The position numbers and the translations under genes are program-made. The notes below the pieces were generated by a model. It searched no databases. It saw only the letters and a program-made list of their open reading frames with translations, and had not been told where the DNA came from. From Tubulanus polymorphus (Eukaryota; Nemertea; Palaeonemertea; Tubulaniformes; Tubulanidae), in the NCBI RefSeq assembly GCF_964204645.1, contig NC_134028.1, positions 20,868,153 through 20,932,152 on the forward strand: DNA of 64,000 nt. The letters run 5' to 3'. Shown here one piece after another: positions 7,973 to 64,000 of the stretch (positions within the stretch are counted from its first letter, which is position 1; every line of letters begins with the position of its first letter).

Positions 7973-8969
7973 CTCAGATAGACAAGGAAAGTAAAAGTAA
8001 GGAAACCCTATTGCTAAGGTAAATTGTCAAAAATACGCGACCTTTAAAATTCATTAACGAACATCGACCTTTTTTATACCAAAATATGTTATATTCAGAT
8101 AAAAGCTCGGTTGTGGATAGAGTTAAACTAGTGTTTAGAAATATGGTCGACTGTGGTAAGGGTAGCGAAGATTCGGATAATGAAACGATTGGAATTTTAC
8201 AGATTCTCAAACATCCAAAACTGCGTCTATACACGATATTAGAAGCTTTTATCTGGTATGCGTTATGAATGTATATAATAACTTGTATGGGGAGGAGGGG
8301 TTTCGTATTTTCTGTAAAAACCACCTTAACTATGAACCTTAAGATCATTTAAGCTTATCAAGAGGAGTGATTTGCCTAATTTCTGATGAGGGAGGCTAAA
8401 AATCTAGATGAAAGTTCATTGAAAATTTACTGGATTTTGACGGGTTGTCGCACTGTTTCTGTTATGCATCTAGCGGGATAGCTGGAGGCACTAAGTCCTC
8501 ATAGATTCATATTTGGAATTATTACTTTATTTACTTGGTTTATCGTCATAATTACAACATATACAATGGAATATTCAATTGTGATCCCAAATACATGTAA
8601 CCATATACAAAAAAAACATGCTTTAATACAATTTCACTCCTTTACACCATGGACTCCACAACGAACTGTAGATGTGCCAAATAGGTATAAAGGGTTTAGT
8701 AGGTAGGAGGTAGATTGATTGAGTTATGAATTTTTGATTCTTACTAGCGATAAATGACAACTATAAGGATTTTCTTAAAGGGACAAGATATTCTAAAAAA
8801 TGACTTATTTCATCCTATAATTTCGGACCTTTGTATCTATGGAAATAACAGACAGTCCTACGCATATGTCTGATATATGTAGAACTGAATTTAATGTCAT
8901 TTTTGTAGAATTCTATAACTAAATAAATTAAGCATTTAAGAATCAAATCATCAATACATTCCGCAACAA

Positions 8970-9180
8970 TACTGTTTTCCTTCTTCATAAACAACATGGG
9001 AGAATGTGTGAGCAGGTATAACATAAGGAAATCGAACTCGAAATCATGCTACTTTTATACGCAGACGATACACGGTGATTCTAGTAGAATCACCAGAAGA
9101 AATTCGAAAGAATAGCAACCAAGTTCTATAAGATCTCTAATGGGCGTCGAGCAATAGACACCAAAATATTTTGTATATAG
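8970..9180 (+). pseudogene. LINE reverse-transcriptase relic with YADD box (unit 1)
   Basis: An FFINNMGECV-like segment is followed, after a frame change, by LLLYADDT, with the catalytic YADD codons at 9058-9069. A further frame change leads into VILVESPEEIRKNS. This is the palm core of a non-LTR reverse transcriptase, heavily decayed and isolated. Confidence 0.7.
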
Positions 9181-9254
9181 AGATGGGGGATCAGTATATA
9201 TAATTAGTAACCACTTTCAAATATACTGGTACCAAATCATTTAGAGCAGATATA

Positions 9255-9373
9255 ATAAATTCACACGTAAAATACGCAACATAACGCTGATGGATATTTC
9301 ACGGTCCAGCAATGGTTATCTAGGCATCTGAAGTCAGCGATTTACTTAATTGACTAACGGCAATGTATGGTAA
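9255..9373 (+). repeat. 119 bp block upstream of GPCR A, shared with 19301-19417
   Basis: It starts ataaattcacacgtaaaata, has the central word atttcacggtccagcaa and ends near atgtatggtaa. A diverged version lies at 19301-19417 in the same unit. It ends about 80 bp before the GPCR A start codon. It could be an old element or a duplicated upstream region. Confidence 0.6.
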
Positions 9374-9453
9374 ACCAAAAAACAAGCCTTTTAGAATCGC
9401 CAGATTCAGATGTACATGCTGTGCACGTTTGTACATCGTGATCGGTCGGCGCA

Positions 9454-10422
9454 ATGGTTGCAACTTCCATTCTTCAGAACCTCACAAATCCCACTAATAT
9501 TTACACAGGCCTCGTACTGGCTGCAACTACGATAAACGGAACCTATCTGTGGTGTTACCTCGTATTCGCCAGTCTTTGTTTAATTCTCGGATTCATCGGC
9601 AATTTCCTGATTGTAATAGTTATGATGCAACGTAAACTATGGCGACGTTCTTTCAGTCGTATGTTCGTTCAACTAGCCGTCTGCGACACTTTGGTTCTCA
9701 TCTGTTATTCGATAAAATATATCAACGTTATATCGTATACTTTTTACGGGAGGGAATTATTGGTCAAACCATTAACGCGAGTTCAATGTATATGTTTTGA
9801 GTATATCATATCATTGTGCCTATCGAGCAGTCCGTGGACGCTGGTCCTCGTAGCAACCGAGCGAATGTGTGTGGTTTGCTTTCCGTTTAGAGGTCCTCGT
9901 TTCTGGAGCCCGAATACTGCTTCTATACTCTGTTCCTCCGTAATCTGCTTCGTAGCCCTGGGTCATAGCTATTTATTTGTAACTATCGATATTAGTGGCA
10001 ACGGTTGTATCATCAAAAATGTTCTCACATTTACCAAGCCTTTGTTAACGTCTATTATTTTCTCTGTCGGCCCGTTTATTTCGTTAGCGATCATGTCCAC
10101 AATAACTTCGATCACTTTATTCAGAAAAAAGGCCAACTCAGAAACAACCCGAGCATCGAAATACTCAAACCAGGTAACCGTGTTAGTTCTGTTACTGTGC
10201 GCCTTCTTCATGGTTACAACATTCCCAACAGTTATTATGAGCCCTTTTCTCAGTACTAATTCGGAATTGAAAAATATCTTCGCTGCCCTAATTGATATCT
10301 TAGCGATAAACTATTCGTTTAATCTCTACTTGTATCTGGTGACGGGAAAAGAAATCAGAAACGAATTGCGGAATTTGATTTTCGAAAAGAGACGCGATAT
10401 ATCACTGTATGTCAAACCTTAA
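9454..10422 (+). CDS. GPCR A, class A orphan receptor (unit 1)
   Basis: A single-exon, 322-residue seven-transmembrane receptor of the rhodopsin class, expected at the plasma membrane. Landmarks are Asn50 in TM1 (GFIGN), Asp78 in TM2 (LAVCD), Cys112 at the top of TM3 with Cys185 in extracellular loop 2 (canonical disulfide pair), and Glu136-Arg137 in place of DRY. TM6 reads CAFFMVTTFP, a CWxP variant, and TM7 reads NLYLY in place of NPxxY. N-terminal sequons (NLT, NGT) are present. The fold is clear; the ligand is not, although the motif variants resemble invertebrate peptide-receptor expansions. The ATG at 9454 gives a full extracellular N-terminus. This copy differs from unit 4 only at residue 2 (Val for Ala). 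Confidence 0.88.
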   Translation: MVATSILQNLTNPTNIYTGLVLAATTINGTYLWCYLVFASLCLILGFIGNFLIVIVMMQRKLWRRSFSRMFVQLAVCDTLVLICYSIKYINVISYTFYGRELLVKPLTRVQCICFEYIISLCLSSSPWTLVLVATERMCVVCFPFRGPRFWSPNTASILCSSVICFVALGHSYLFVTIDISGNGCIIKNVLTFTKPLLTSIIFSVGPFISLAIMSTITSITLFRKKANSETTRASKYSNQVTVLVLLLCAFFMVTTFPTVIMSPFLSTNSELKNIFAALIDILAINYSFNLYLYLVTGKEIRNELRNLIFEKRRDISLYVKP

Positions 10423-11121
10423 AACCCATCATCTCTGTAGTCTAAAATTACAATCGCAGAAGTTATAGCTATATCAGTACCGCGTTCAGTTTTCTATCTA
10501 ATAGATTCAATCAATTATAAAATCTTTATCCGCTAAATTATACCAGTAACTCTCCAATAAAAATGGCATTCTCTGCCGGTCGAAGATGAGGAAATATTAT
10601 GCAGTTTCGGGTTCTGTCTTCGACATAAGTACAAATGCCATATACGTTGAACGGAGCCCCCTCTGCCACACGACAATGATCCATTGACATAGGGGGGCCA
10701 TCAATTTTTGAAAAGTGCTCTTTCTCCAAATATTTGTGTCATATCCTATAGAACGGCCCCTTTTCGAGTCTCCCTTAAAAAAAGATATTCAAATGCGACG
10801 TACGGCCCTGACTTCCAGAATCAGTTAGCATTTACAGGGATAATCGGGGACTGAAATTCGGCGGCACCTGTGTGAATTTGACTGTTACAAGTAGAAACTG
10901 ACAAAAAAATTCAGAACACATCAAAGCCTGTGCCCGAAGCGTAATTTATCGTCTCCAGCAATTTCAGTGACATTATCAATACGCTATCAGATGAAGCTCA
11001 TGGAAAAAAGGTAATGAGTGCTTGGACCGTCTACTTCATGGCGCAATCGATTGAGTAAAACTAAGTTTAGAGAGCTTACAGATGCTAACAAAAATTATCA
11101 CGTGCTGCAAACGGAACATCT

Positions 11122-11312
11122 CTATGAAGCCCGATAGATAACGAATATACGATGATTGTAACGAGTTTAGTTCTGACAGTCGGATACGGATGATAATCAT
11201 TCATGACGCGGATGTTAATCAGACGATCTGCGACGTCTTGAAGTAAAGTGTAGTGACAAGTTCCGCCGAATTTGTAATTGAACCCGTCAAACGAGGCGTA
11301 CGATAGATCATC
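11122..11312 (-). pseudogene. Duplicated VWD exon fragment (unit 1)
   Basis: On the minus strand about 63 codons closely match the N-terminal part of exon 7 of the BMPER-like gene (13160-12970), including LSYASFDGFNYKFGGTC and the stretch up to LSIGLHRD. It lies about 0.75 kb past the gene's last exon in the direction of transcription. No acceptor or donor comparable to the real exon is visible, so it looks like a partial internal duplication. It recurs at 27098-27288, 46731-46912 (with a small frame-breaking deletion) and 62657-62847. Confidence 0.75.
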
Positions 11313-11967
11313 TTAGTTCTGATCAGATAGGGTCTACTTTCTTCGCTTTTTGAAATCAACTTAAGCAAAATTTTTACGATTTCTTTTTTACGACGGCGCC
11401 CGGGGCTGGACAGAGCATACCATCTCTTAACATGATGACGAATTTTGTGCATACTACGACGAGTGAAGTTTCACGATAAATTATTATAAAATAACGATAA
11501 AAAAGTGTTTTATTTCAAACATATCTGTAGATATAAAAACATTGATCATATTTACATTCAAACCTGAAAGAAATAGATATGTTATTAACAAACAAATACA
11601 ATTTGAAATCCTTATAAAAGCACAGTGTATGAAAATTGTAACATCACAAAAATTCAAAACGTCGAATTTGCACTAAATTATTATGAAAAGTTGCATAAAT
11701 TTACATAAATTACACCCTGCAAAACCAAGTCATGACATGATAACAAAGTTACATAAAACGATATTGAAGATAAACGTATTGAAAACAATCTACAAAATAT
11801 GAAACTATTCTGAAATCATTCACTACAAAATAAACAAAAATCCTGAAAAAGCAAAAACTCTGAAATAGAAAATTTAATTAGTAACAACAAGAAAAACAAC
11901 AGGAGCAGCGACATAAATATAACATCAATCATCATTAATGATGCACATCACTTAAAACAGAGTAACA

Positions 11968-11973
11968 TTTTAT
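11968..11973 (-). terminator. Poly(A) signal of the BMPER-like gene
   Basis: AATAAA on the minus strand lies about 90 bases past the stop codon at 12063. It is the first canonical signal downstream, and the same hexamer recurs in the other units. Confidence 0.5.
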
Positions 11974-12062
11974 TTTTACTTAATCTAAGTCATCAGGAAC
12001 ATCAGGAATCTAAGTCATCAGTTTGAGAACAGGTTTTATCATTATGTAGGATCTCGCTGGTT

Positions 12063-15000
12063 CTAATCCAATATGGCGTTCTCCGACTCATCACCAACTA
12101 CAACACCTCCTAACGATCGTAACAACAACGGCATTTTCCCTCTTCTTTTCTGCTTGTGTTGTTTCTTCAAGTTTTTCTTGTTCTTCGAAGAGTTAGAGTC
12201 GTGTTGTTTCTGCCGAGTAGAATGGTCACATTGAGAATGTTTAGGTAGTTTGAGTTGTATGTTGTGCTCGGCGCATTCTTTTACGTAAAACTTCACGATA
12301 GCGCATTCGCAGTTTCTACCCGAAGGACATTCACAAACGTTATCAGTACAAGCCCTGAAAATGAAATAGAAATAAACCATTACCAGTCTAGTTTTTCTTT
12401 CATTATTTTCGTAACTCTCCTTACTCGGTACCAGCCAAATGAGGAAACTGATGGTGCAATTATACCAATAATGTATTACTCAAAACGTGGAAGTAAGAAC
12501 TTTACTATAGAATTAGATATTTACCTGAGAAATGGTTGGACGGGGACTTTCTTGTGGCATTTTTTGAACGCCGGACTCTTTAAGACAGCACATTTCTGAT
12601 GAGCGCGAACTCGCTGATCCACAGTTTTACACGACGACTTTCTACTATTAAACGGTTCGTCGCAGTTACATTTACCACCGACTCGCCACGACTTTGCGAA
12701 AACCTCCGAATCCGAGACAATTTCCTGCTTGAATTTCATTTTACTATCGTCTTTTACGACTTGATTGAAATTACCGCAAAGACCGCCTAATTTATTCTGC
12801 CAATTCGCAGTTACGTAAACATTGATATCGCCTTGTTTACTCCAGGTTAATCTGAATCCGTTTATCATATTGACGACCACTGTCGCGTTTTTGACGACTT
12901 CGATAGTAAAGTTTTCATGTTTGAACGGAACAGCGATTTTACTACGATTCACTCTGATATCCAGATCTCGATGAAGCCCGATAGATAACGAAGATACGAT
13001 GATTGTAACGAGTTTTGTTCTGACAGTCGGATACGGATGATACTCATTCTTGACGCGGATGTTTATCAGGCGATCTGCGACGTCTTGAAGTAAGGTGTAG
13101 CGACAAGTTCCGCCGAATTTGTAATTGAACCCGTCAAATGAAGCGTACGATAAATAATCCTTGTTCGAGTTAGTAACTGAACAGATACTATGAGCCGCGA
13201 CACATAGTGGGCAACATTCTCCATGAGGCCGATAGAGAATAGATTTCTGAAAAAAATGAAAAGATGTAATGTATTCAAGTTTCATGATTTCACGCAAACA
13301 TGAAATGATTTAAACGCCAACGAAAAACAAATGGATGACGGGCAGCAACAAAACATATCAAACTAAAATAAATCCCCACATTTAGAATAAAAAAAGCCCG
13401 AAAGTATCCCTGCAAAAAAGTATTAGGATATGGTCGAAACATCGAGTAGGTATTCGCTCAAGAAATAATGGAACAATAATTATTTGTTTTTTCAATCACT
13501 GATGATTTTGATATCAATTCCTCAATTGTACCAGGATTTCAACCATGAAAACTTAGATATTTACCTGTGAACATTTAGGAGTTGAACCACACGTTATTTC
13601 TTGGCAGGTGACGTTTCCATCTTTACAACTACAATCAGTACAGGATCCATCCTTCCAGATCTGATCAATCTGTAAATAGAATACTACTGAGTTCAAGGTT
13701 GGAATAAAGGACGGATTAGCATCGAAGATAGGGATTTAATTCAAATTTTAAAAGACAGTTTCTTCCTCTTTTATGAAAAATATACTACAATGTACAGGGA
13801 TATTTCGTCTATGCTTAACCTATGGTTATTCGAATATCTGTTTCAAATAATGGTCTTATGCCCTTAACTCAAATAGTAAGATATTTACCTTGTACATTTT
13901 GCCTTTGTATGCACATCCAGCTGGACGCTTACATTTCGGACAACACGATTTCTTATCGTAGACCAAGAATTGTTTCGGGCAATTCAGATCTGGACACGAT
14001 TTACGATAACACTGCATCCCGCCCTTGTAACAAGAACATTTCGTGCATTTATCCGGCATGAAATGTCGATTTTCTTGATGAAGATGACCGCGAAATAAAC
14101 AACTGCCGTGAATAGAACTGACCGATACGGCTTCTTTACCTGCAAGAAAAATTGAATTCGATTTAATAGGCAAATCCACAAAAATTATTTTTCTTAACCC
14201 TTGGGTTAGATGCCGAGGGAGGGTAGAGAATAGAAGAAACTTTGGCCAAAGAATTGTGCAACCACCAGGACTCGAACCCATGTGCCCTGGACATCTTAAA
14301 AGATTACTTACCTTTACAAATTGGACAGCACTCGTTTTCTTCGTGTACTTGATATTTTTGTGGACAATTTAAAACTGGGCAAACTTTCCGAATACACGTC
14401 AATTCACCCGACTGAAATACAATGATAACAATGACAATGACAAATTGAACGTGTATATATCAGTGAAATACGTATGAAGTGCTCTAAAATTTTAGAACTA
14501 AACATGATTATTCGTTTATACCTGGCATTTACATGTTGTGCACTTTTCACCGGGTTTTGTCATTGATTTCCCATCTTCGACGGTAATTCCGTCCAGAACG
14601 CAACCTTTAGTGTTCTCTTTCTCGCTGCTACAGGCCGGGCAACATTGACCCGGTTTATATATCTGTTCACGACATCCCGCGCGACATTGTACTTTACTAT
14701 GAGTTAGAACACCGGACTGAAGAAAATATTTTAAAAAAAATTTTAACATACGTTTTGAACATGTAACAATCAGGATCCAGTGAGTTAGAATCAGATATTT
14801 TTCATTCGGTTTAGTGAATTAAATTTCTAACGCCTTACACTGCGGAACTGGGTCGTAGCACTACCAGCACCAGCAACGGATATTTTCAGACGAACGTGAC
14901 ATAGGCCTATTATTTGAGAAATCCAGATTAAATTTACTTACCGAACACGAGTGCTGTTTACAGGGATCTTTTTCGTCAATCCATTCAGCTCCACTTTTAT

Positions 15001-15177
15001 ATTCTTTATTCCGATATTTACAGCCTATGATTATCAAAGAATCAGCATTTATATATCATCTGATAATATGTTAATTTATGTGTCATTATCATTAGATATG
15101 ATAAGATATGAAGACTAACCCGTTACTGAATAGATTACTGAAATCAACACAATCATTTTCAAGATGTAATAATCCAT
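12063..15177 (-). CDS. Crossveinless-2/BMPER-like secreted BMP modulator (unit 1)
   Basis: Eight coding exons: 15177-15120, 15024-14942, 14716-14522, 14411-14312, 14139-13889, 13669-13565, 13246-12525 and 12354-12063. All phases agree and all introns are GT-AG, giving 601 residues. A signal peptide (about 1-20) is followed by four VWC domains (21-76, 86-144, 159-215, 221-279; each ends CCPxC), a VWD domain (about 286-455, GLCGNFN near 419) and a C8 domain (about 475-545), then a Lys-rich tail. This architecture is that of crossveinless-2/BMPER, an extracellular protein that binds BMPs through VWC domains and tunes signalling. Differences from the usual form: four VWC domains rather than five, no TIL domain, and no GDPH cleavage motif at the start of VWD (NKDYLSYASFDG instead). 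It converges with GPCR A. Confidence 0.88.
14268..14278 (-). repeat. tRNA-like B box in intron 4, possible SINE fragment
   Basis: The minus strand reads GGTTCGAGTCC, a perfect RNA polymerase III B-box word, followed by about 100 bases of unassigned sequence. No A box and no cloverleaf is apparent, so this is not a tRNA gene; a truncated tRNA-derived SINE is possible. It recurs at 30243-30253 and 49866-49876. Confidence 0.35.
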
Positions 15178-16030
15178 TATAATCTTTCAATTCTTTGAGT
15201 GGTAATCCGTCAATCATCGATTGAATGTTAATTCGTTAATCCCGCGTTTACTGATTATCCGCTAATCCAATGATAGTGATGATGATGACTAGTCATTGAC
15301 TGAACTGATTTGTTGATGTCGCATCAGATTGTTTTATACCGGGATCATCTATCACTCAAACCCGACACGTGAGAGAGGAGCACATGTCATTAATTAAACA
15401 CTGGCGACTGACATTAATTACCTGATTACATATTTTCGACTTCTGTGAACTGTTCTGATGCTGTTCTAATTATTGTAATTGAGTAAAATCAATTAAGCTC
15501 TAATTAACTCTAAAACGACGTACGATATAGATTGATTAATCACATCCAGTAATTACAACGTGACGAACTCTACTTTCGTCGAATGAAAAATTCGATGTTT
15601 TCATACGCATCCAATTAACTCCCTTTCAAAGTTTGAAAACCAACTATACACAAATTTTAAAACAGTTAAAGCGAATTTCATTCATCAAATATTAGAATCA
15701 AAAGACATGACGCTTCCAACTCGCACTAGAGTCAGGTGTCTACTCTCCACGTCAGAGTGTGGCTATTCTACTATCACCTCCTTCGGGGTTTGTGTTTTAG
15801 TTTTTGGGTGTTTGTCGGTTGTTTTCCGCTTTTCTTGGGCGTGTGTTTGGTGGAGTCGCCTGGAAGCTGGTCTCGGTTTTTCAATGTCTCGTCTATTTGT
15901 GTAGTAAATTCGCACAGCAGGAAGTGATAATATGTTTCTTTGTTAGGCAACTGTGAACATCTTAATATGCATATGAAATAAATGCATGTACAACGTATTC
16001 ATTTCCTCAGCAACGACAAAAAGTATAAAG

Positions 16031-16122
16031 CAGGACCCAGTTCTACAGTTGTGAGTGAGTTAAAGTTCAATGAGTTAACTCGGAGTTTAATCTGAACTCG
16101 AAACTGTTTAACTGGACCCAGG
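16031..16122. mobile_element. CAGGGTCC palindromic MITE, shorter member (unit 1)
   Basis: The termini caggacccagttctacagtt and aaactgtttaactggaccca are imperfect inverted repeats around a gagttaactc core. It recurs at 32006-32097 and 51629-51720. Confidence 0.6.
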
Positions 16123-16208
16123 ACAATATATAATGATATTAATCGCACCATACACATGTCGATTTATTTGATAAGCCAGTTGAAAATAGAACAAAACCCA
16201 ACTTGTCG

Positions 16209-16338
16209 CTTACCGGTTCAGGGTCCAATTCCACAGTTCCGAGTTAGGATTTAGCTCCGAGTTAACTCATTGAAAATGAACTAGCTTTAACTCAAGAGTT
16301 AACTCTAACTCACAACTGGGGAACTGGGCCCTGGTAAG
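16209..16338. mobile_element. CAGGGTCC palindromic MITE, longer member (unit 1)
   Basis: The left end cagggtccaattccacagtt and right end aactggggaactgggccctg are inverted repeats. Pairing extends outward to cttacc/ggtaag and inward to gagttaactc. No target duplication is clear. Fragments of the same family lie outside the array at 2141 and 4431. It recurs at 32184-32313 and 51807-51936. Confidence 0.65.
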
Positions 16339-16847
16339 ATAAAAGATTGGTTACACGAATCAGAAATTCCAATTGTGTAGTTCGTTTTTTTTTTCAGGTT
16401 CGCTTCCAGCTCGTGTTGCTATTATTTCAATGGGCAGAAAATCCATACTACTCTCGCTGTGTTAATTGCGGCTATATGTATTGTCTTCATTCAGTATATG
16501 ACATCGTGGGTGGTTTAAGTATAAATCATTGTTCATGAAAAGAGTAAATTCTATGTTGTCTATTATCGGAACAAGATTGATTCGTAAATACGAAATGCGC
16601 GTGTAGTATGATAAATATATATAACTACTCAAAAGTTCTATTTAAAAAGATGAAAATGTTTGTTTTTTTCAAAAACATCTATTTCAACTCATCTAACATT
16701 TGACGTATACATGTATGTATGTTTCTAGAGATAATTGCACCCTGCTGAACGACCGTGCCGTATCACGACACAGGTATCAAATTTGATTTAGAAGTTTAAT
16801 TGGGCGTGTTGGGTAATCCGCGACGAAATTCCTATAGCAGCTCGAGA

Positions 16848-17861
16848 ATGAATGGTAGTATGAACTACAGCAGCAGCAATAGCAGCAGCAGCGGTAATGG
16901 TGACGGATTGAGATGTCCTGTGATGAAAATCAGTGAAATCCTTACGATGTTAAACATATTTTATGTCGGGCCGATTTGTGTCGTCGGCATCGCATTGAAT
17001 GTCTTAAACATACTTATTTTACGGTCGTTTCGTTCGCCGATCGTATCCGTTTACCTTTTACAGTTACTAGCGGCAGCCGACATATTTTACCTGGTCAGTT
17101 CTTTTTTCTATTTCACCGTCAGATTTTCGGCTTATTACTTCATGAAAGGTGAAATCGTCTTCCGTCTCAATGGCGGTAACATCTTTCCGCGGTTCTACAT
17201 ACCGGCGCTTGAAATTTACGGCTTTTCGATTCTATTTCGCAACATCTTCGTGCCAGTCGTTTCGGTTGACCGGGCGGTGAATTTGTATTTTCCGTTTTTC
17301 GCCCGCCGCCACGTCACAAAAAGGCGGGTGACGACCGTATTCGTGATCCTATTGGTTGTCTGTTTTTTCGGCCGTGGTTACTATATGCTATTCGGAGTCG
17401 GGAAATTTGGATACCGACCGAACAAATGCGACCAAACGATGGAAATCTACGCGCTGAAACGAAGTCCTTTCATCAAGAAAATGCATAATTTGAGATACTA
17501 CCTTTGCGTGTCGTTCGGACCAATGCTCGTACTTATAACTTTGAACTGCCTGATTACATATAAAGTCGTATTTCGAACCGGAATCGGGGCGGCTCCGTCG
17601 AAAGCACGCTCACCATCTAACGCGCAAGCCACGAAAACCGTATTAACGATCGTGTCGTTGTTTATCGTTTGTGAAATGGGCCCTGTTATCGATCGGTTGA
17701 GTCAGCTGATTTTGGGCCGCCGATATACATGGCATCCGCATCTCCGGAAAGCGTCGCTCTATTTGTCCGTGAATGATTCTTTTTTGAATTTTTTTGTCTA
17801 TGTGGCAGCAAATTCGCGATTCCGCAAGATATTCGTGAATATGCTAAAACGGGTGAAATAA
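16848..17861 (+). CDS. GPCR B, class A orphan receptor, intact copy (unit 1)
   Basis: 337 residues in one exon. The frame is open upstream to 16800, but that start would be TTG; the first ATG is at 16848. The N-terminus is Ser/Asn-rich with several sequons, then seven TM segments: Asn51 in TM1 (ALNVLN), Asp78 in TM2 (AAADIF), Asp141-Arg142 in TM3 (VDRAVNLYFP) and TM7 NDSFLNFFVY. TM6 is unusual: LFIVCEMGPVIDRL (271-284) replaces the CWxP region, closely like GPCR C. Extracellular loop 2 has Cys194, but no cysteine is seen at the usual top-of-TM3 site; Cys23 in the N-terminus could be its partner. It looks like an FMRFamide-receptor-type peptide receptor; ligand unknown. It is the only intact copy in the window. 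Confidence 0.85.
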   Translation: MNGSMNYSSSNSSSSGNGDGLRCPVMKISEILTMLNIFYVGPICVVGIALNVLNILILRSFRSPIVSVYLLQLLAAADIFYLVSSFFYFTVRFSAYYFMKGEIVFRLNGGNIFPRFYIPALEIYGFSILFRNIFVPVVSVDRAVNLYFPFFARRHVTKRRVTTVFVILLVVCFFGRGYYMLFGVGKFGYRPNKCDQTMEIYALKRSPFIKKMHNLRYYLCVSFGPMLVLITLNCLITYKVVFRTGIGAAPSKARSPSNAQATKTVLTIVSLFIVCEMGPVIDRLSQLILGRRYTWHPHLRKASLYLSVNDSFLNFFVYVAANSRFRKIFVNMLKRVK

Positions 17862-17889
17862 GAAATTCATTCCAATTCCGGATTACAAA

Positions 17890-18290
17890 CTCTCTACCGG
17901 CCGCTTCTATCAGGTGCCAAAATTAGGCTCGGGCCTGGTCCGACGTTTTTGGTCGGGCCAAATTTGGCCCGGGCCAAACAAGCTCGGGCCCATTTGGCAC
18001 CCGTGTGAACAGTTTTTCCGGGCCAAACTTGACACGGGCCAAAAATGCATGTGTGATCGCGGCTATAGAGACGCATGGCTTACCAAAGAGCGCGCCGATT
18101 TTCATGTTCAAATTCAAACCCATTCAGTCAATACTAAACAATGCTTAAACCATGGAATCTAAAACGAGTCCATACTTAAACAAAGCGAAGTGACTGACTT
18201 CTAGAACCAGTTTAAGTTAACACGCTTAATTTGACTCAGGTCTGGTCCGTCGTTTTTGGTCGGGCAATTAGGCACGGGTCCATTTTGCAG
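17890..18290. repeat. GGGCC-rich degenerate repeat
   Basis: The words cgggcc and gggccaaa recur about every 15-30 bases between 17925 and 18045. The longer motif ctggtccg-cgtttttggtcgggc appears at about 17935 and again at 18243. Open frames here on both strands follow the repeat and are not taken as genes. Equivalents start near 33865 and 53488. Confidence 0.5.
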
Positions 18291-18399
18291 TTTTTTTTTC
18301 GCCAGATCTCTCCACCCCTACACCTTCTAACTTGATTTTTATCATCCACGTATTTACATTTCGATTTTGTCAGCTTGTGTTAATTTTATACTCCTGTAA

Positions 18400-18431
18400 A
18401 GCACACTGATTACAATTTACAGCAGTGTGCT
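18400..18431. repeat. 9 bp hairpin AGCACACTG
   Basis: AGCACACTG (18400-18408) and its complement (18423-18431) are separated by 14 bases. Found in every complete unit. Confidence 0.5.
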
Positions 18432-18834
18432 GTATAATGAAATAAGTAATATTGATTATTAATATCAATTTCAAGTGTGAATTTGTAGTTGAAAAATAAT
18501 TGATTTGATTAACAATATAATTTGATCTAGACATCCCAGCGTCAATCAATCAAGAAAAAATTTAACTAGTCAAAGACTCAAGATCAAGTAAAGAAAACGA
18601 AAGATGCATTCTAACAACTGATTGCGATGTGAAGACTATATTAGGCTCATTATTAGAACCTACACTACAGCTATTTAACTTTCTAAAGATGATTCGTCGC
18701 AGACCCTCACATACCGTGTACATTATCACTCAAATTGCCTAAATATGTCTGGTGCCGTCGCTATAGTATACTACTTATTAAAAACAATGATTACACCAAT
18801 ATAATTAATATAAGCTCAGGTTTTTAGCGTTTAG

Positions 18835-19910: not shown

Positions 19911-20530
<620 letters not shown>

Positions 20531-39736: not shown

Positions 39737-39749
39737 TTTATATATATAA
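39737..39749. repeat. (TA)n tract, contracted (unit 2)
   Basis: Only about six TA repeats here, against about 94 in unit 1 and 80 in unit 3 at the same site. Confidence 0.85.
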
Positions 39750-52445: not shown

Positions 52446-53459
52446 ATGAATGGTAGTATGAACTACAGCAGCAGCAATAGCAGCAGCAGCGGTAATGGTG
52501 ACGGATTGAGATGTCCTGTGATGAAAATCAGTGAAATCCTTACGATGTTAAACATATTTTATGTCGGGCCGATTTGTGTCGTCGGCATCGCATTGAATGT
52601 CTTAAACATACTTATTTTACGGTCGTTTCGTTCGCCGATCGTATCCGTTTACCTTTTACAGTTACTAGCGGCAGCCGACATATTTTACCTGGTCAGTTCT
52701 TTTTTCTATTTCACCGTCAGATTTTCGGCTTATTACTTCATGAAAGGTGAAATCGTCTTCCGTCTCAATGGCGGTAACATCTTTCCGCGGTTCTACATAC
52801 CGGCGCTTGAAATTTACGGCTTTTCGATTCTATTTCGCAACATCTTCGTGCCAGTCGTTTCGGTTGACCGGGCGGTGAATTTGTATTTTCCGTTTTTCGC
52901 CCGCCGCCACGTCACAAAAAGGCGGGTGACGACCGTATTCGTGATCCTATTGGTTGTCTGTTTTTTCGGCCGTGGTTACTATATGCTATTCGGAGTCGGG
53001 AAATTTGGATACTGACCGAACAAATGCGACCAAACGATGGAAATCTACGCGCTGAAACGAAGTCCTTTCATCAAGAAAATGCATAATTTGAGATACTACC
53101 TTTGCGTGTCGTTCGGACCAATGCTCGTACTTATAACTTTGAACTGCCTGATTACATATAAAGTCGTATTTCGAACCGGAATCGGGGCGGCTCCGTCGAA
53201 AGCACGCTCACCATCTAACGCGCAAGCCACGAAAACCGTATTAACGATCGTGTCGTTGTTTATCGTTTGTGAAATGGGCCCTGTTATCGATCGGTTGAGT
53301 CAGCTGATTTTGGGCCGCCGATATACATGGCATCCGCATCTCCGGAAAGCGTCGCTCTATTTGTCCGTGAATGATTCTTTTTTGAATTTTTTTGTCTATG
53401 TGGCAGCAAATTCGCGATTCCGCAAGATATTCGTGAATATGCTAAAACGGGTGAAATAA
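52446..53459 (+). pseudogene. GPCR B, nonsense copy (unit 3)
   Basis: Nearly identical to the intact unit 1 gene, but codon 190 is TGA (53013-53015) where unit 1 has CGA, in extracellular loop 2. The downstream frame is open to 53459. The lesion is different from that of unit 2, so the two losses are independent. Confidence 0.88.
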
Positions 53460-54419
53460 GAAATTCATTCCAATTCCGGATTACAAACTCTCTACCGGCC
53501 GCTTCTATCAGGTGCCAAAATTAGGCTCGGGCCTGGTCCGACGTTTTTGGTCGGGCCAAATTTGGCCCGGGCCAAACAGGCTCGGGCCCATTTGGCACCC
53601 GTGTGAACAGTTTTTCCGGGCCAAATTTGACACGGGCCAAAAATGCATGTGTGATCGCGGCTATAGAGACGCATGGCTTACCAAAGAGCGCGCCGATTTT
53701 CATGTTCAAATTCAAACCCATTCAGTCAATACTAAACAATGCTTAAACCATGGAATCTAAAACGAGTCCATACTTAAACAAAGCGAAGTGACTGACTTCT
53801 AGAACCAGTTTAAGTTAACACGCTTAATTTGACTCAGGTCTGGTCCGTCGTTTTTGGTCGGGCAATTAGGCACGGGTCCATTTTGCAGTTTTTTTTTCGC
53901 CAGATCTCTCCACCCCTACACCTTCTAACTTGATTTTTATCATCCACGTATTTACATTTCGATTTTGTCAGCTTGTGTTAATTTTATACTCCTGTAAAGC
54001 ACACTGATTACAATTTACAGCAGTGTGCTGTATAATGAAATAAGTAATATTGATTATTAATATCAATTTCAAGTGTGAATTTGTAGTTGAAAAATAATTG
54101 ATTTGATTAACAATATAATTTGATCTAGACATCCCAGCGTCAATCAATCAAGAAAAAATTTAACTAGTCAAAGACTCAAGATCAAGTAAAGAAAACGAAA
54201 GATGCATTCTAACAACTGATTGCGATGTGAAGACTATATTAGGCTCATTATTAGAACCTACACTACAGCTATTTAACTTTCTAAAGATGATTCGTCGCAG
54301 ACCCTCACATACCGTGTACATTATCACTCAAATTGCCTAAATATGTCTGGTGCCGTCGCTATAGTATACTACTTATTAAAAACAATGATTACACCAATAT
54401 AATTAATATAAGCTCAGGT

Positions 54420-54615
54420 TTTTAGCGTTTAGTGGTTTGGAAGAACATTGATCCCAAGGCTATATTTCGAATAACAGACCAGGTCCAGTTTCCTTCGTTT
54501 GACATTCGGAGGAACATTCCTCCCGAAGTCGATACTTTGAATATCAGACCTGAAGGTCAAATTCTCCTCGTTTGACCTTGGGAGGAATATTCCTCCCAAA
54601 GTCAATTTTCACAAT
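54420..54615 (+). repeat. Minisatellite with palindromic core (unit 3)
   Basis: Three units, as in unit 1. Confidence 0.7.
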
Positions 54616-55507
54616 AGCGGTCCTCTTAATTGATGACACTCAATGAACGAGCGGCTCAGATTTCGATTGTGCGCCTATCGCGCTTTCTGTAAATGTGAAG
54701 ACCTCGGGGGCATTATGTTCTCTATAGCCCGACACAATCCCACATTCCGGACTGTTAATAGGTCGATTTTACGGCAGAGTCGACATGTTTCACCAATTCT
54801 TAACTGTTCATTTATGAATATGTGAGGACTTATGAACTAAAAATTAGTTAAATTTTTGATACATTTTGAGAAAGTCATTTGAGACTGCGTTAGAAATGAT
54901 AAATTCACACGTAAATGTATGACATAATGCTGCGTTATATTTCACGGTCCAGCAACATCCGGGAACCTAAAGTACGTGATTTACTTATCGACTTGATTAT
55001 GGTAATATGTGGTAAGGGAAGAGATAATACGAGCCATGAGACGGGAAAATACACAATATACACAGCATTTAGCCGAACGTTGATCTAAATATGCATATCA
55101 TTTTAATATACATGTAGAACTTTTAATTTCTGGCTGAATTTATAGTGGGATTTCTCTCGTTAAGATGTTTTTTTTTCGTTCTGTCAAAGCTACGTGTTCC
55201 AGAATATAGTTCTCGATTAACCAACTGCTACATTTTATATCTTACATTCCTTTTCTCGGTTTCAGTTTATCCAAGCTTTGCTTTTTCAGATGAACCCGAG
55301 TTTTATATGACAACATGGTGTATTGATTTTCACATTGTACGAACAGTTGCAATTTATTTCTGAAGCAAACAACTGAATAAACTGAAAGTCGACCTTGACA
55401 CAAATTATCCATTCATGCGATGTAGATTGAACTCTCGCTTTTCGACATGTCGATTTATATCACACTTATACTCGATATACACTTTGTAACGAAAAAGCCT
55501 TAATAAA

Positions 55508-56100
<593 letters not shown>

Positions 56101-56287
56101 AGCTACTAAATTCACGACGTTAGATGATAAAAAATCATATCATTAATGAGATATTTTATACATACCCCTAATCGGATACACAGTGAACGTTCGTTCTATC
56201 CTATCGTCATAACTAATCGGATTCGTTTTTGAAAGGTGTCGTGGATAGTACAGTTCTACTGCAGCTTGGTCGCTCACAGGTCGTGGG

Positions 56288-57367
56288 ATGCTCGTCGAAA
56301 ACATTACTAACACGGGCCGAACACCGACAACACCGCAACTCAACGTGTGCCAGAGAATTAAAACTCTCCCTGTTCTATGGATTAACAAACTCAATGTTTC
56401 TGTATATTTAGGCTGGTATCTACCGGCATCTATACTGGGTTTGATATTCAACGCATTCACGTTATTAGTTCTAAAACGGTTTAAATCTGATAACTATTTT
56501 CTCATCAAAATTCTCGCTCTAAACGATCTTTTCTTTATGATCGCTACATTCATTCTTTATCCGCTGAGAACTGCGTACGTTTTCGTCGTTTTGGGAGATA
56601 TTGTATTTCGCAAGAACGATTGGAATTTTGGTTGGATCTTCATCTCAGTCGCTTTGCCATTTTTTTATATATTTCAGATGACGCGTAACTGGTGCACTGT
56701 ACTGCTCAGTCTAGAGCGGTTGATCGTCGTTTTATTTCCAATTAAATCTCGAAACTTTCCCAAGAAGTTAATTTCACAATGCGCAATGGTGTTTATTTCA
56801 CTTTTAAGTTTTTTTGGCCATTTCATTCGTTTCATTCCTAACCAACAACTTGGATTTATGGATTGCCCGGTTGAGTGGCCATATGTGACAATACGTATTA
56901 AGTATTATGACTACCCCGAGTGGTTTAAACAATACAGATGGCGATCTGCAATTTCTAGGGTCTATCTCTTCATGTATCTTACTGTTATAATCCCAATATG
57001 TGTTTTAGTCGTTATCAATGTTATTCTTATTTCGGCAATATTTTTGGATCGGCTTAATCGACGTTCAGTGCTCGGTGTAACAGATGAAACGTCTAGAAGG
57101 GAAATAAGGGTTTTAAGAATGGTTTTATCAGTAGTTTTGTTGTTCATCTTCTGTGAAGGTTTTGGATTCATTGATCGTTTAATGAATTTAAACCGTATCC
57201 CCGCCATTCCGGGTATGAGCCTGATAGCGCTGGGATTTTCAATCATCGATTCGTCCGTAAATTTCATCGTGTATTGCGCGACGGATGAAAGATTTAGGAA
57301 AGTAGCTTTTGATATTTTAGGCAACGATTGCCGCGAACGACGGGTACCGATAAAAGAAAAAGGATAA
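56288..57367 (+). CDS. GPCR C (unit 3)
   Basis: Intact 359-residue copy. It differs from unit 1 at D3V, E261V in intracellular loop 3 and V347D in the C-terminal tail. All structural motifs listed for unit 1 are retained. Confidence 0.86.
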   Translation: MLVENITNTGRTPTTPQLNVCQRIKTLPVLWINKLNVSVYLGWYLPASILGLIFNAFTLLVLKRFKSDNYFLIKILALNDLFFMIATFILYPLRTAYVFVVLGDIVFRKNDWNFGWIFISVALPFFYIFQMTRNWCTVLLSLERLIVVLFPIKSRNFPKKLISQCAMVFISLLSFFGHFIRFIPNQQLGFMDCPVEWPYVTIRIKYYDYPEWFKQYRWRSAISRVYLFMYLTVIIPICVLVVINVILISAIFLDRLNRRSVLGVTDETSRREIRVLRMVLSVVLLFIFCEGFGFIDRLMNLNRIPAIPGMSLIALGFSIIDSSVNFIVYCATDERFRKVAFDILGNDCRERRVPIKEKG

Positions 57368-57596
57368 AAAATGCCGAATATGGAGCGATGTTAGAATTAT
57401 AGTGGAAATACCCCCCATAGCATACGTCATTATACGACTGACCAAATAAGACCATACCGCTTGCCCATTGCATTTAACACGCACAAGACGTGTAAACTCA
57501 TGAGACATAGTTGTTTTGTTCATTACAATCTTGGAGGTTGATATTTCAAAGGGGAAATGATTATACCTAAGGGGTTGTCCTTATTTGATTTTGTTC

Positions 57597-57646
57597 TCAG
57601 TACGCCTGATGAGGGCTAACAGTTATTAGCCGAAACGTCGCTACTC
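57597..57646 (+). ncRNA. Hammerhead-like motif (unit 3)
   Basis: Identical core to unit 1: CTGATGA (57606-57612), stem II, GAAAC (57632-57636) and GTC (57637-57639). Confidence 0.45.
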
Positions 57647-58004
57647 AAATATAATCATTCTGATAGAGAATTTTTCAATCTTGGCTTCGTTATTGTGGGA
57701 TTTCTCTCGTCATACTATGCCTTTACATGTCACTTGTTGACAGGCGTCCGCAAATTTTTTCAATTTGAACCAGTTTTCATTTTCCAAAGAACTAATTTGA
57801 AACCTGTTGCAATAGCATTATGCAATAATTTCCAACAAGTATCTGCTCTTTATCGTTTGTCAATATATATATATTTATTATAAACCTCGTTCACAATATC
57901 CGGCCAGTGCAAAACCATCATTTTCTGTTCGCCCCCAATCGATGTTTTTTATGGAGATGTTTGAACAATAGAATTGTATATAAATGTGAGGTGTTAAAAT
58001 ATGT

Positions 58005-58715
58005 ATAATAATAATGATAATAATAAGTGTCTTATAAAGCGCTAAATACAACTCACGAAAAAAGCCGCTCAGAGCGCTTCACATAAAAGCCTCATTAAAG
58101 AGGAAATGTTAAAGTTGCCTCTTGAAGATTTCCAAAGATTTTATAGACCGGAGGTCTCCAGGAAGCTGATTCCACAAGGGCGGGCCATCGATGGAAAAGG
58201 CTCGAGAACCGAAAGGCTTTCTATTGTATCTATGATGATATGATGATATGATTTATTTTCAAGTAAAGTTTTTACAAAATTAATGAATCTAGGGACTGTC
58301 AGTGAGATAAAGACAGAAGAACGGAGAGGACGGCAAGGGGCATGAATATGAATGAGGTCACAGAGATGTTTAGGAGCCAAATTATGTATGCACTGGATGA
58401 TGAAAATGAGAACTTGGTACTTGATTCTTTGTTCAATGGGTAACCAATGTAATTCCATAAGGACACAGGTTTGATTGATTTATATTTTCTGGTTTTACTA
58501 ACTAGACGGGCTGCTGTGTTTCGTACTAGCTGGAGAGGTTTCGTTGAGGATTTTGGTAATTCAGCGTGAACAGAGTTACAAAAGTCAAGACGGGTTGCGA
58601 TGAGTGCCTGCACATAAATTCTTGTGGCATCAACAGATATATATTGACGGATTTTACCAATGTTGCGAATGTAAAAAATTAGCAGACTTCACACAGCTTG
58701 AAATGTGGTCTCTAA
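58005..58715 (-). pseudogene. 5'-truncated LINE, polymerase C-terminus (unit 3)
   Basis: Counterpart of 22440-23150. Here the ALIATRLDFCNS block and the following residues stay open for longer (58613-58299), but the LHWLP block is in another frame. Confidence 0.72.
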
Positions 58716-59325
58716 ATGTATTAGTAAATATTGCTATGTATCAAATTGGACATAGATTTCTGGTAAATCACCACGATTTACATTTCCGTCAGATAGAATT
58801 AGCTTCCAACGATGCGGTATCGAATCGCGTCCATATTAGTGTGCTTTGTAATACATTTTCAGGGGTATTTCGTCAAGGTAGCTTGTAATTGCCGCGATAA
58901 TCATCGAATGAATGTTGCAGATCCGTGATGTATGTATTCTGTGGAATCGGTTTCGTCCAGTTCCGACACGCCCATCAGCGCACGTGGGAGGTAGCTGCTT
59001 GTAAAAATTACAATACACAAATTGCAAATGCTGTCAAAATAGAATATCGTGTAAAAGTTATTTTCAAATATGTGATATAATCACAAATATCAAATATGCA
59101 ACTGGTTTGAATTTTAGTTCAGCCATTACTGAGAAATTCGACTTTTAAATCGGCAATTTCAGCACGTGCTCACTGTTATTGTTAATGTTAGCATTTCACC
59201 TCGTTAAGAAATCGTGGAAAATACAATTTTGATAGCAGTATATATATTTGTTTCAAGCCCATACAGATTCTTCCCTTAAAGAGAAAATGTTTTCCCCTTT
59301 AATCACTTTATAATCTATTTTACAG

Positions 59326-59653
59326 ATACCGCACCGTGGGAATTGCTTCGGCGTTTGCCCGAGTTGGTTCGATGACAGCACCATTCGTCGCTCATTTGGT
59401 TGGTTTCATCTAGTAAATGTCACTTGTCACTTGTCATTTCAATATTACGATTGAATTGTTTCAGGCTCAATTTATATCTTGGTTGCCAGGCGTGATTCTC
59501 GGGTGTATTGGACTGGTAACCGCTTTGTTGATGTTACCCTTACCGGAAACTAGAGGTGTACCGATGCCTCAAACTATCACTGATATCGACCGACCTAGAA
59601 ACGACTCGATAAACCGGACTGTAGATGAAAATCATCTGGAACAAATTAGTTAA
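59326..59653 (+). pseudogene. Orphan last two SLC22 exons (unit 3)
   Basis: Exons 59326-59398 and 59465-59653, encoding the same residues as in unit 1. Confidence 0.75.
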
Positions 59654-60489
59654 TTTTTACCTCAGGTTAACAACAATGAGGACTCTACGTTCGACTGTGG
59701 CAATCGAGGATTCCACTTATGGCAAGCGACGATCCACTAGGTTCGCTAGTGTGCATTCAGACAACGACTCCCGGATTTCTTCTCATATTCAATTAAAGTC
59801 TATCCATAATTTCTCAAATTCTTTGAATGGTGATCAGTAAAAACCACCTTAAATATGAAACTTAAGATCATATAAGTTTATCAAGACGAGTGATTTGCCA
59901 AATTTCTGACGAGGGAGGCTAAAAATCTAGATGAAAGTTCATTGAAAATGAACTGGATTTTGACAGGGTTGTCGCACTGTTACGCACACCATCTAGCGCG
60001 ATAGCTGGTGGCACGAAGTCCTCATAGATCCATATTTGGAATCATTACTTTATTTTACTTGGTTTATCGTCATAATTACAACATATACAATGGAATATTC
60101 AATTTTGATCCCAAATACATGTAGCCATATACAAAAAAAATATGCGTTAATACAATTTCACTCCTTTACACCATGGACTCAACAACGATCGTTATGGAAC
60201 TGTAGATGTGTCAAATAGGTATATAAGGTTTAGTAGGTAGGAGGTAGATTGATTGAGTTATGAATTTTTTATTCTTACTAGCGATAAATGACAACTATTA
60301 GGATTTTCTTAAAGGGACAGGATATTCTAAAAAATGACTTATTTCATCCTACTATCTATGGAAATAACAGACAGTCCTACGCATATGTCTGATATATGTA
60401 GAACTGAATTTAATGTCAATTTTTGTAGAATTCTATAACTAACTAAATTAAGCATTTAAGAATCACATCCTCAATACATTCCTCAACAA

Positions 60490-60700
60490 TACTGTTTTCC
60501 TTCTTCATAAACAACATGGAAGAATGTGTGAGCAGGTATAACATGAGGAAATCGAACTCGAAATCATACTACTTTTATACGCGGACGATACACGGTGATT
60601 CTAGTAGAATCACCAGATGAAATTCGAAAGAATAGCAACCAAGTTCTATAAGATCTCTAATGGGCGTCGAGCAATAGACACCAAAATATTTTGTATATAG
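60490..60700 (+). pseudogene. LINE reverse-transcriptase relic with YADD box (unit 4)
   Basis: Counterpart of 8970-9180; YADD codons at 60578-60589. Confidence 0.7.
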
Positions 60701-60981
60701 AGATGGGGGATCAGTATGTAGAATTAGTACCCACTTTCAAATAGTCAAATATGCTGGTCCCAAATCGTTTAGAGCAGATATAATAAATTCACACGTAAAA
60801 TACACAACATAACGCTGATGGATATTTCACTGTCCAGCAATGGTTATCTAGGCATCTGAAGTCAGCGATTTACTTAATTGACTAACGGCAATGTATGGTA
60901 AACCAAAAAACAAGCCTTTTAGAATCGCCAGATTCAGATGTTCATGCTGTGCACGTTTGTACATCGTGATCGGTCGGCGCA

Positions 60982-61950
60982 ATGGCTGCAACTTCCATTC
61001 TTCAGAACCTCACAAATCCCACTAATATTTACACAGGCCTCGTACTGGCTGCAACTACGATAAACGGAACCTATCTGTGGTGTTACCTCGTATTCGCCAG
61101 TCTTTGTTTAATTCTCGGATTCATCGGCAATTTCCTGATTGTAATAGTTATGATGCAACGTAAACTATGGCGACGTTCTTTCAGTCGTATGTTCGTTCAA
61201 CTAGCCGTCTGCGACACTTTGGTTCTCATCTGTTATTCGATAAAATATATCAACGTTATATCGTATACTTTTTACGGGAGGGAATTATTGGTCAAACCAT
61301 TAACGCGAGTTCAATGTATATGTTTTGAGTATATCATATCATTGTGCCTATCGAGCAGTCCGTGGACGCTGGTCCTCGTAGCAACCGAGCGAATGTGTGT
61401 GGTTTGCTTTCCGTTTAGAGGTCCTCGTTTCTGGAGCCCGAATACTGCTTCTATACTCTGTTCCTCCGTAATCTGCTTCGTAGCCCTGGGTCATAGCTAT
61501 TTATTTGTAACTATCGATATTAGTGGCAACGGTTGTATCATCAAAAATGTTCTCACATTTACCAAGCCTTTGTTAACGTCTATTATTTTCTCTGTCGGCC
61601 CGTTTATTTCGTTAGCGATCATGTCCACAATAACTTCGATCACTTTATTCAGAAAAAAGGCCAACTCAGAAACAACCCGAGCATCGAAATACTCAAACCA
61701 GGTAACCGTGTTAGTTCTGTTACTGTGCGCCTTCTTCATGGTTACAACATTCCCAACAGTTATTATGAGCCCTTTTCTCAGTACTAATTCGGAATTGAAA
61801 AATATCTTCGCTGCCCTAATTGATATCTTAGCGATAAACTATTCGTTTAATCTCTACTTGTATCTGGTGACGGGAAAAGAAATCAGAAACGAATTGCGGA
61901 ATTTGATTTTCGAAAAGAGACGCGATATATCACTGTATGTCAAACCTTAA
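60982..61950 (+). CDS. GPCR A (unit 4)
   Basis: Intact 322-residue copy, identical to unit 1 except Ala for Val at residue 2. Residue 2 is Ala in units 2-4, so unit 1 carries the derived state. Confidence 0.88.
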   Translation: MAATSILQNLTNPTNIYTGLVLAATTINGTYLWCYLVFASLCLILGFIGNFLIVIVMMQRKLWRRSFSRMFVQLAVCDTLVLICYSIKYINVISYTFYGRELLVKPLTRVQCICFEYIISLCLSSSPWTLVLVATERMCVVCFPFRGPRFWSPNTASILCSSVICFVALGHSYLFVTIDISGNGCIIKNVLTFTKPLLTSIIFSVGPFISLAIMSTITSITLFRKKANSETTRASKYSNQVTVLVLLLCAFFMVTTFPTVIMSPFLSTNSELKNIFAALIDILAINYSFNLYLYLVTGKEIRNELRNLIFEKRRDISLYVKP

Positions 61951-63597
61951 AACCCATCATCTCTCTAGTCTAAAATTACAATCGCAGAAGTTATAGCTAT
62001 ATCAGTACCGCGTTCAGTTTTCTATCTAATAGATTCAATCAATTATAAAATCTTTATCCGCTAAATTATACCAGTAACTCTCCAATAAAAATGGCATTCT
62101 CTGCCGGTCGAAGATGAGGAAATATTATGCAGTTTCGGGTTCTGTCTTCGACATAAGTACAAATGCCATATACGTTGAACGGAGCCCCCTCTGCCACACG
62201 ACAATGATCCATTGACATAGGGGGGCCATCAATTTTTGAAAAGTGCCCTTTCTCCAAATATTTGTGTCATATCAAACGGCCTATAGAACGGCCCCTTTTC
62301 GAGTCTCCCTTAAAAAAAGATATTCAAATGCGACGTACGGCCCTGACTTCCAGAATCAGTTAGCATTTACAGGGATAATCGGGGACTGAAATTCGGCGGC
62401 ACCTGTGTGAATTTGACTGTTACAAGTAGAAACTGACAAAAAAATTCAGAACACATCAAAGCCTGTGCCCGAAGCGTAATTTATCGTCTCCAGCAATTTC
62501 AGTGACATTATCAATACGCTATCAGATGAAGCTCATGGAAAAAAGGTAATGAGTGCTTGGACCGTCTACTTCATGGCGCAATCGATTGAGTAAAACTAAG
62601 TTTAGAGAGCTTACAGATGCTAACAAAAATTATCACGTGCTGCAAACGGAACATCTCTATGAAGCCCGATGGATAACGAAGATACGATGATTGTAACGAG
62701 TTTAGTTCTGACAGTCGGATACGGATGATAATCATTCATGACGCGGATGTTAATCAGACGATCTGCGACGTCTTGAAGTAAAGTGTAGTGACAAGTTCCG
62801 CCGAATTTGTAATTGAACCCGTCAAACGAGGCGTACGATAGATCATCTTAGTTCTGATCAGATAGGGTCTACTTTCTTCGCTTTTTGAAATCAACTTAAG
62901 CAAAATTTCTACGATTTCTTTTTTACGACGGCGCCCGGGGCTGGACAGAGCATACCATCTCTTAACATGATGACGAATTTTGTGCATACTACGACGAGTG
63001 AAGTTTCACGATAAATTATTATAAAACAACGATAAAAAAGTGTTTTATTTCAAACATATCTGTAGATATAAAAACATTGATCATATTTACATTCAAACCT
63101 GAAAGAAATAGATATGTTATTAACAAACAAATACAATTTGAAATCCTTATAAAAGCACAGTGTATGAAAATTATAACATCACAAAAATTCAAAACGTCGA
63201 ATTTGCACTAAATTATTATGAAAAGTTGCATAAATTTACATAAATTACACCCTGCAAAACCAAGTCATGACATGATAACAAAGTTACATAAAACGATATT
63301 GAAGATAAACGTATTGAAAACAATCTACAAAATATGAAACTATTCTGAAATCATTCACTACAAAATAAACAAAAATCCTGAAAAAGCAAAAACTCTGAAA
63401 TAGAAAATTTAATTAGTAACAACAAGAAAAACAACAGGAGCAGCGACATAAATATAACATCAATCATCATTAATGATGCACATCACTTAAAACAGAGTAA
63501 CATTTTATTTTTACTTAATCTAAGTCATCAGGAACATCAGGAATCTAAGTCATCAGTTTGAGAACAGGTTTTATCATTATGTAGGATCTCGCTGGTT

Positions 63598-63889
63598 CTA
63601 ATCCAATATGGCGTTCTCCGACTCATCACCAACTACAACACCTCCTAACGATCGTAACAACAACGGCATTTTCCCTCTTCTTTTCTGCTTGTGTTGTTTC
63701 TTCAAGTTTTTCTTGTTCTTCGAAGAGTTAGAGTCGTGTTGTTTCTGCCGAGTAGAATGGTCACATTGAGAATGTTTAGGTAGTTTGAGTTGTATGTTGT
63801 GCTCGGCGCATTCTTTTACGTAAAACTTCACGATAGCGCATTCGCAGTTTCTACCCGAAGGACATTCACAAACGTTATCAGTACAAGCC
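63598..63889 (-). CDS. BMPER-like gene, last exon only (unit 4, partial)
   Basis: Encodes the second half of the C8 domain (ACTDNVCECPSGRNCECA) and the Lys-rich tail through the stop codon. It matches unit 1 (Arg in PSGRN) rather than units 2 and 3 (Lys). The rest of the gene lies beyond the right edge. Confidence 0.85.
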
Positions 63890-64000
63890 CTGAAAATGAA
63901 ATAGAAATAAACCATTACCAGTCTAGTTTTTCTTTCATTATTTTCGTAACTCTCCTTACTCGGTACCAGCCAAATGAGGAAACTGATGGTGTAATTATAC

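Follow-up and report, generated by a model that had tools for sequence, protein, structure and literature searches.

A tandem array of receptor and secreted-protein genes lies on contig NC_134028.1 of the nemertean Tubulanus polymorphus, within a stretch of 64,000 nucleotides (C4:20868153-20932152; hereafter, the window) and extending beyond its right end. For the analysis, the window was joined to its flanking pieces into a region of 144 kb in total, which contains no Ns; positions follow window numbering. Four collinear direct copies are apparent on self-comparison of this region (8311-24278, 24279-43917, 43918-59833, and 59834-74877), with spacings of 15,968, 19,639, and 15,916 bases. The first 4.2 kb of copy 4 falls inside the window, and the array ends at 74877, 10.9 kb past it. 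Each unit carries, in order, the G protein-coupled receptor (GPCR) gene A (+), a gene resembling BMPER, a modulator of bone morphogenetic protein (BMP) signaling (−), GPCR B (+), GPCR C (+), and the tail of an SLC22 gene (+), the tail being present in units 1-3 only and absent from copy 4. An earlier note made from this sequence had described the collinear copies and this gene content, both of which are borne out except for the tail in the last unit. Its unit size of 16 kb fits copies 1 and 3 but not copy 2, which is longer because of a non-long terminal repeat (non-LTR) retrotransposon of approximately 3.5 kb (a long interspersed nuclear element, LINE) found in no other copy. The features are listed below with their strands, where assigned.

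8311..24278: copy 1, the only copy with all four genes intact
24279..43917: copy 2, lengthened by the LINE insertion, with a stop in GPCR B and a frameshift in GPCR C
43918..59833: copy 3, with a stop in GPCR B
59834..64000 (on to 74877 outside the window): copy 4, first part, with GPCR B frameshifted and a stop between VWD and C8 in the BMPER-like gene
5614..8310, +: body of the SLC22 gene, in the left flank, ending short of the middle exons
8311..8502: truncated second half of a repeat resembling miniature inverted-repeat transposable elements (MITE-like), opening copy 1 on the left and meeting the SLC22 intron in a short stretch common to both
8511..9310: outer left edge of copy 1, noncoding, 3.7-4.0% from copies 2-4
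9454..10422, +: GPCR A, rhodopsin-like (PF00001), single exon; repeats at 25419-26399, 45052-46032, and 60970-61950 (open reading frame spans)
12063..15176, −: BMPER-like gene of copy 1, a likely signal-peptide exon (by eye) plus seven exons; four VWC, VWD, and C8
16800..17861, +: GPCR B, one exon, uninterrupted in copy 1 alone
20682..21800, +: GPCR C, one exon, disrupted in copy 2
23711..24120, +: last exons of the SLC22 gene (its tail), directly before the interspersed repeat at each junction
24121..24470: interspersed MITE-like repeat of about 350 bp with inverted ends of about 9 bp, spanning the junction of copies 1 and 2; also at 43760-44109 and 59676-60025
36132..39640, −: open reading frames of the non-LTR retrotransposon, endonuclease plus reverse transcriptase, copy 2 only

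Over their shared core, the copies are 98.46-99.06% identical in the six copy pairs, and the length and identity of this four-copy similarity exclude a chance origin. The sequence before the join is identical at all three internal junctions, and long TA runs occur at corresponding places of copies 1 and 3. In a search of the genome (268 Mb, 77 contigs) with a 1187-base query from the unit start, for which the best 40 of 203 candidates were scored, four matches reached at least 92%, all at the array locus; the remaining 36 matches listed were at most 89% identical and covered just a repeat of approximately 190 bp. Coding DNA is only somewhat more alike than interior noncoding DNA (six of six pairs), and the previous description of introns and intergenic sequence as nearly as similar as exons was fair.

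The outer edges of the array are more diverged than its interior. The left edge of copy 1 stands apart from copies 2-4, which differ among themselves there by 0.5-1.0%, and at the right edge (23000-23710) copy 4 differs from copies 1-3 by 2.4-3.8%, as compared with an interior noncoding divergence of 0.7-1.6% across the six pairs. Between copies 1 and 4, noncoding divergence is 3.82% at the left edge and 3.68% at the right edge versus 0.77% in the interior (Fisher p 1.2e-10 and 2.9e-9, respectively); with coding DNA included, the left edge ranks first of 138 overlapping 800-bp windows in this pair (median 0.5%). For the three pairs with copy 1, the outer left edge shows approximately three to six times the interior divergence. 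Positions 8411-8510, where 24-25 differences per 100 are inflated by gap placement, were excluded from the edge test.

Furthermore, the relationships among the copies switch along the unit. The sites dividing the copies two against two (53 in total) are distributed over all three groupings, with 21 for 1+3, 18 for 1+2, and 14 for 1+4, and are arranged in blocks. Copies 1 and 3 are almost identical across approximately 13.7-19.8 kb; copy 2 has copy 4 as its nearest relative, whereas copy 4 is more similar to copies 1 and 3 than to copy 2. When the edges are excluded, identity runs clearly exceed those of shuffled data for copies 1 and 3 and for copies 2 and 3, and the run of 34 sites between copies 1 and 3 (18124-20363) was matched in 0 of 2000 shuffles.

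The left end of the array is marked by a gap in what is presumably an SLC22 gene, a name given by the earlier reader and in keeping with general features of transporter sequences. The gene body in the left flank and the tail at the junctions match one set of genes, on C11 and C7, in which approximately 0.7 kb separates the corresponding parts. This middle is absent from the 144 kb, bar one 35-base match far downstream, and the same search finds the middle of the relatives. At 8311, the SLC22 intron passes into the middle of the repeat via the short shared sequence, and a piece of the left flank has a single high-identity occurrence in the genome. Based on the missing middle and the join at 8311, the start of the duplicated segment most likely lay within SLC22; a subsequent deletion most likely took away the middle of that gene together with the first tail and one half of the repeat, thus leaving the SLC22 body truncated. 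The possibility that the tail is ectopic filler from another chromosome was discarded, as body and tail match the same C11 and C7 genes and the middle is missing. Recombination between repeat copies was likewise discarded as the cause of the duplication, because the joins fall at the start of the SLC22 tail (23711) and at 23710/74877, outside the repeat; the sole end inside the repeat is that of the left-end deletion.

The genes within the units have decayed to different extents, and all four are intact in copy 1 alone. GPCR A is open in all four copies, whereas GPCR B is open only in copy 1, being interrupted in copies 2 and 3 by stops that differ in position and in copy 4 by a one-base insertion; the latter is one extra T in a T run and is possibly a sequencing error. 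GPCR C is open in three of four copies, copy 2 having lost four bases in one deletion and one base in another at the end of the examined stretch, and the BMPER-like model is open in three of four, with the stop of copy 4 between VWD and C8 (seven exons, the first exon not being compared). The joint rise in dosage of all the genes proposed in the earlier note therefore finds no support: the proposal fails for GPCR B and is weakened for the BMPER-like gene and GPCR C. Genes that share a duplicated segment need not all gain in dosage. Selection against surplus copies of GPCR B was considered and rejected, since two nonsense changes among 19 substitutions (p 0.13) fit chance decay; silent divergence between GPCR B and its paralogues has reached saturation.

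Owing to the diverged outer edges and the mosaic relationships, similarity among the copies provides no clean clock, and that of the interior probably understates the age of the first duplication. We consider it likely that the array is an older duplication homogenised by gene conversion and/or unequal exchange. A segment from within SLC22 through GPCR A, the BMPER-like gene, GPCR B, and GPCR C would have been duplicated in tandem, long enough ago for the difference of approximately 4% at the outer edges, and the four copies would have been reached via unequal exchange between copies. The interior would have been homogenised by gene conversion and/or repeated unequal crossing-over, latest among copies 1, 3, and 4. 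A later deletion, with short shared sequence at its ends, would have stripped the left end of the SLC22 middle exons, the proximal tail, and half of the MITE-like repeat, a LINE would have inserted into copy 2 alone, and the extra gene copies would have decayed piecemeal, in what would be a mostly neutral process. Expansion from two diverged copies purely by unequal crossing-over was rejected, because it predicts approximately 4% throughout copies 1 and 4 and their interior noncoding divergence is 0.77%.

In Drosophila, raised edge divergence of duplicated blocks has been described and attributed to a failure of gene conversion at the edges (PMC2588116). The Bob and Amy blocks reported there likewise show a homogenised interior, diverged edges, and a misleadingly young look; the present array differs in comprising four copies and several unrelated gene families, and in being compared in one species. 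The array is a clear, if unremarkable, instance of a known process and illustrates that similarity among copies can misdate duplications: the interior alone looks brand new, and the outer edges suggest an older event.

Several observations weigh against an older, homogenised duplication. Right-edge divergence is also raised between copies 1 and 3 (2.40%, p 3.9e-5) and between copies 2 and 3 (2.82%, p 0.02), and copies 3 and 4 differ there by 2.40%; the contrast is thus not confined to the outermost copy, and a block at 23.0-23.4 kb groups copies 1 and 2 against copies 3 and 4. The left edge adjoins the repeat. The p-values for the edges are optimistic, as neighbouring sites are linked and the six pairs were tested uncorrected. 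Outside the edges, the excess of identity runs is weak for copies 2 and 4 (p 0.01) and copies 3 and 4 (p 0.04), and is absent for copies 1 and 2 and copies 1 and 4 (p 0.10 each). Finally, from this one genome, conversion and repeated unequal crossing-over are inseparable, and the edge value is uncalibrated to time.

The recent amplification proposed in the earlier note, in which one unit would have been copied three times quickly and the differences would be later point mutations, agrees with the overall identity of 98.5-99.1%, the identical junctions, and the near identity of copies 1 and 3 across approximately 13.7-19.8 kb. Recency is only partly right, the near-identity of the copies probably stemming from overwriting between copies in addition to recent copying: the interior divergence of approximately 1% is in keeping with it, whereas the edges (approximately 4% and 2.4-3.8%), the three- to six-fold excess at the outer left edge in the pairs with copy 1, and the switching relationships of the copies are not, and such an amplification is rather unlikely as the whole account. 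Assembly error also seems unlikely, and we give little credence to a join, end to end, of two haplotypes with fewer units each. Divergence of 1-2% is within the allelic range of many invertebrates; copies 1 and 2 are collinear with copies 3 and 4, and the grouping of 1+3 versus 2+4 is the largest two-against-two class (21 of 53 sites), copy 2 being nearest to copy 4. However, the expected pairing of 1 with 3 and 2 with 4 is only partly seen, since copy 4 resembles copies 1 and 3 more than it does copy 2, and 18 and 14 sites fall to the remaining groupings; haplotype duplication was therefore set aside as the origin and kept as a rival. Also against it, a piece of the left flank is single-copy in the genome at high identity (for the right flank, repetition was looked for within the 144 kb), no unit occurs on other contigs among the matches listed, the 144 kb are free of Ns, and the copies bear their own LINE, TA runs, and lesions, although haplotypes could do so too.

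Adaptive co-amplification, by selection for a joint increase of the BMP modulator and the receptors, is highly improbable. Intact GPCR A in all four copies and intact BMPER-like genes in three would suit it, as would the ratios of nonsynonymous to synonymous change (dN/dS) in the VWD exon (0.09-0.13 for copy 1 versus copies 2 and 3; 0.08-0.21 versus five loci outside the array) and ratios near 0.5 for GPCR A and GPCR B between copies 1 and 2, on 13 and 16 changes, respectively. Constraint on a gene does not, however, show selection for more copies of it; GPCR B is intact in one of four copies, and the BMPER-like gene has multiplied elsewhere without close relatives of these receptors among the matches listed.

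The receptor genes have many relatives in the genome. In copy 1, GPCR A, B, and C score 42.4, 37.5, and 32.8 bits, respectively, against 7tm_1 (PF00001; cut-off 30.5 bits), and at least 124, 116, and 110 rhodopsin-like matches, respectively, are listed for them, the lists overlapping in part. Because each receptor has so many relatives, the co-amplification seems to reflect adjacent genes swept up in a single duplicated segment and not a functional module, and the presence of GPCRs beside a BMPER-like gene would need no special explanation. Structure searches by sequence with GPCR A and GPCR B yielded nothing beyond weak matches to a mixture of class A receptors. Nineteen relatives of GPCR A (71-80% identity) are among the matches listed, over six chromosomes (C6-C11), and between the array GPCR A and the four relatives examined, DNA similarity stops near the coding sequence, bar one 52-base match; this suggests that they dispersed as single genes. 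An inverted paralogue of GPCR C, 90% identical and with an open reading frame, lies just past the array (75851-77196). Single-exon clustered receptor families are known, for example the lineage-specific rhodopsin-like candidate chemoreceptors of Aplysia (PMC2700072), which are likewise single-exon class A receptors with many genomic relatives, some of them clustered. Unlike those, the present receptors are known from their genes alone, and the likeness noted is one of general family kind.

The assembled BMPER-like model of copy 1 comprises 601 residues, with a likely signal peptide followed by four VWC stretches, VWD (PF00094), and C8 (PF08742), VWD and C8 both above the Pfam cut-off. No TIL match follows C8 in this model, a below-cut-off TILa match lying at residues 220-266, before VWD. 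By sequence, the best solved relatives of the model are VWD-bearing proteins, e.g., von Willebrand factor and FCGBP. BMPER as published comprises five VWC domains, VWD, and TIL, with a GDPH cleavage motif within VWD (PMC6456722), and in zebrafish CV2 the eight residues before the first cysteine of the VWC1 construct bear the BMP-binding Clip (PMC6270503). The gene thus shares with BMPER and Crossveinless-2 a likely signal peptide and the order of VWC domains, VWD, and C8; it is not canonical, having four VWC stretches instead of five, neither GDPH nor TIL, and a basic C-terminal tail. In the model, whose first exon is unconfirmed, hardly any residues would separate the likely signal peptide from the first cysteine, unlike in CV2 with its Clip.

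The BMPER-like subfamily was found at 13 loci, nine of them outside the array: besides the four array copies, six lie at C4 19.9-20.7 Mb, of which one appears as two separate hits; C4:8.72-8.74 Mb carries two more, and the last, on C1, has two stops. GDPH is replaced in all nine members read, whereas it is retained in all three of the distant relatives read from the same genome (approximately 33-36% identical; weaker relatives were not read). The low dN/dS between array copies indicates that they are not evolving freely, and that versus five of the nine outside loci indicates that the subfamily is constrained. No close GPCR A, B, or C stands beside the six C4 relatives among the matches listed, and the BMPER-like gene therefore seems to have spread alone as well.

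From these sequence features, we tentatively propose that the genes may be lineage-specific secreted relatives of Crossveinless-2 that have lost GDPH and TIL, and probably the Clip too, and are kept at 13 or more loci under purifying selection; they might act as natural uncleavable BMP modulators or have taken on a new extracellular role, beside GDPH-bearing relatives. Human BMPER mutated at the cleavage site is reported to be secreted, mostly uncut there, and more prone to proteolysis outside the cell (PMC6456722). In other proteins a VWD without GDPH is not unusual, the motif being present in 11 of 13 FCGBP D assemblies and in one of four in MUC2 and MUC5AC (PMC10880436). No GDPH-less or lineage-expanded Crossveinless-2 was found in the literature searched, whose coverage left out most subscription papers. 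The subfamily offers natural variants for testing what self-cleavage does.

Two further arrangements concern this subfamily. At C4:8720638-8743965, two BMPER-like genes enclose three GPCR A relatives, the outer pairs being tail-to-tail as in the array, in mirrored order; a joint origin of the two pairings is unproved, because these GPCR A relatives are 64-67% identical and closer ones occur on C11 and C7. A VWD-exon fragment of approximately 200 bp lies downstream of each BMPER-like gene in the array, at 11088-11319 and the matching place of each unit, and in copy 1 it is 93.6-95.1% identical to four dispersed C4 relatives versus 92.6-93.6% to the array VWD exons.

An Rfam scan of the window gave no matches. 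A long tandem repeat with a period of approximately 52 bp occupies 89055-91366, beyond the array, and upstream of the SLC22 body lies a single-exon cytochrome P450 gene (PF00067; 2413-3924).

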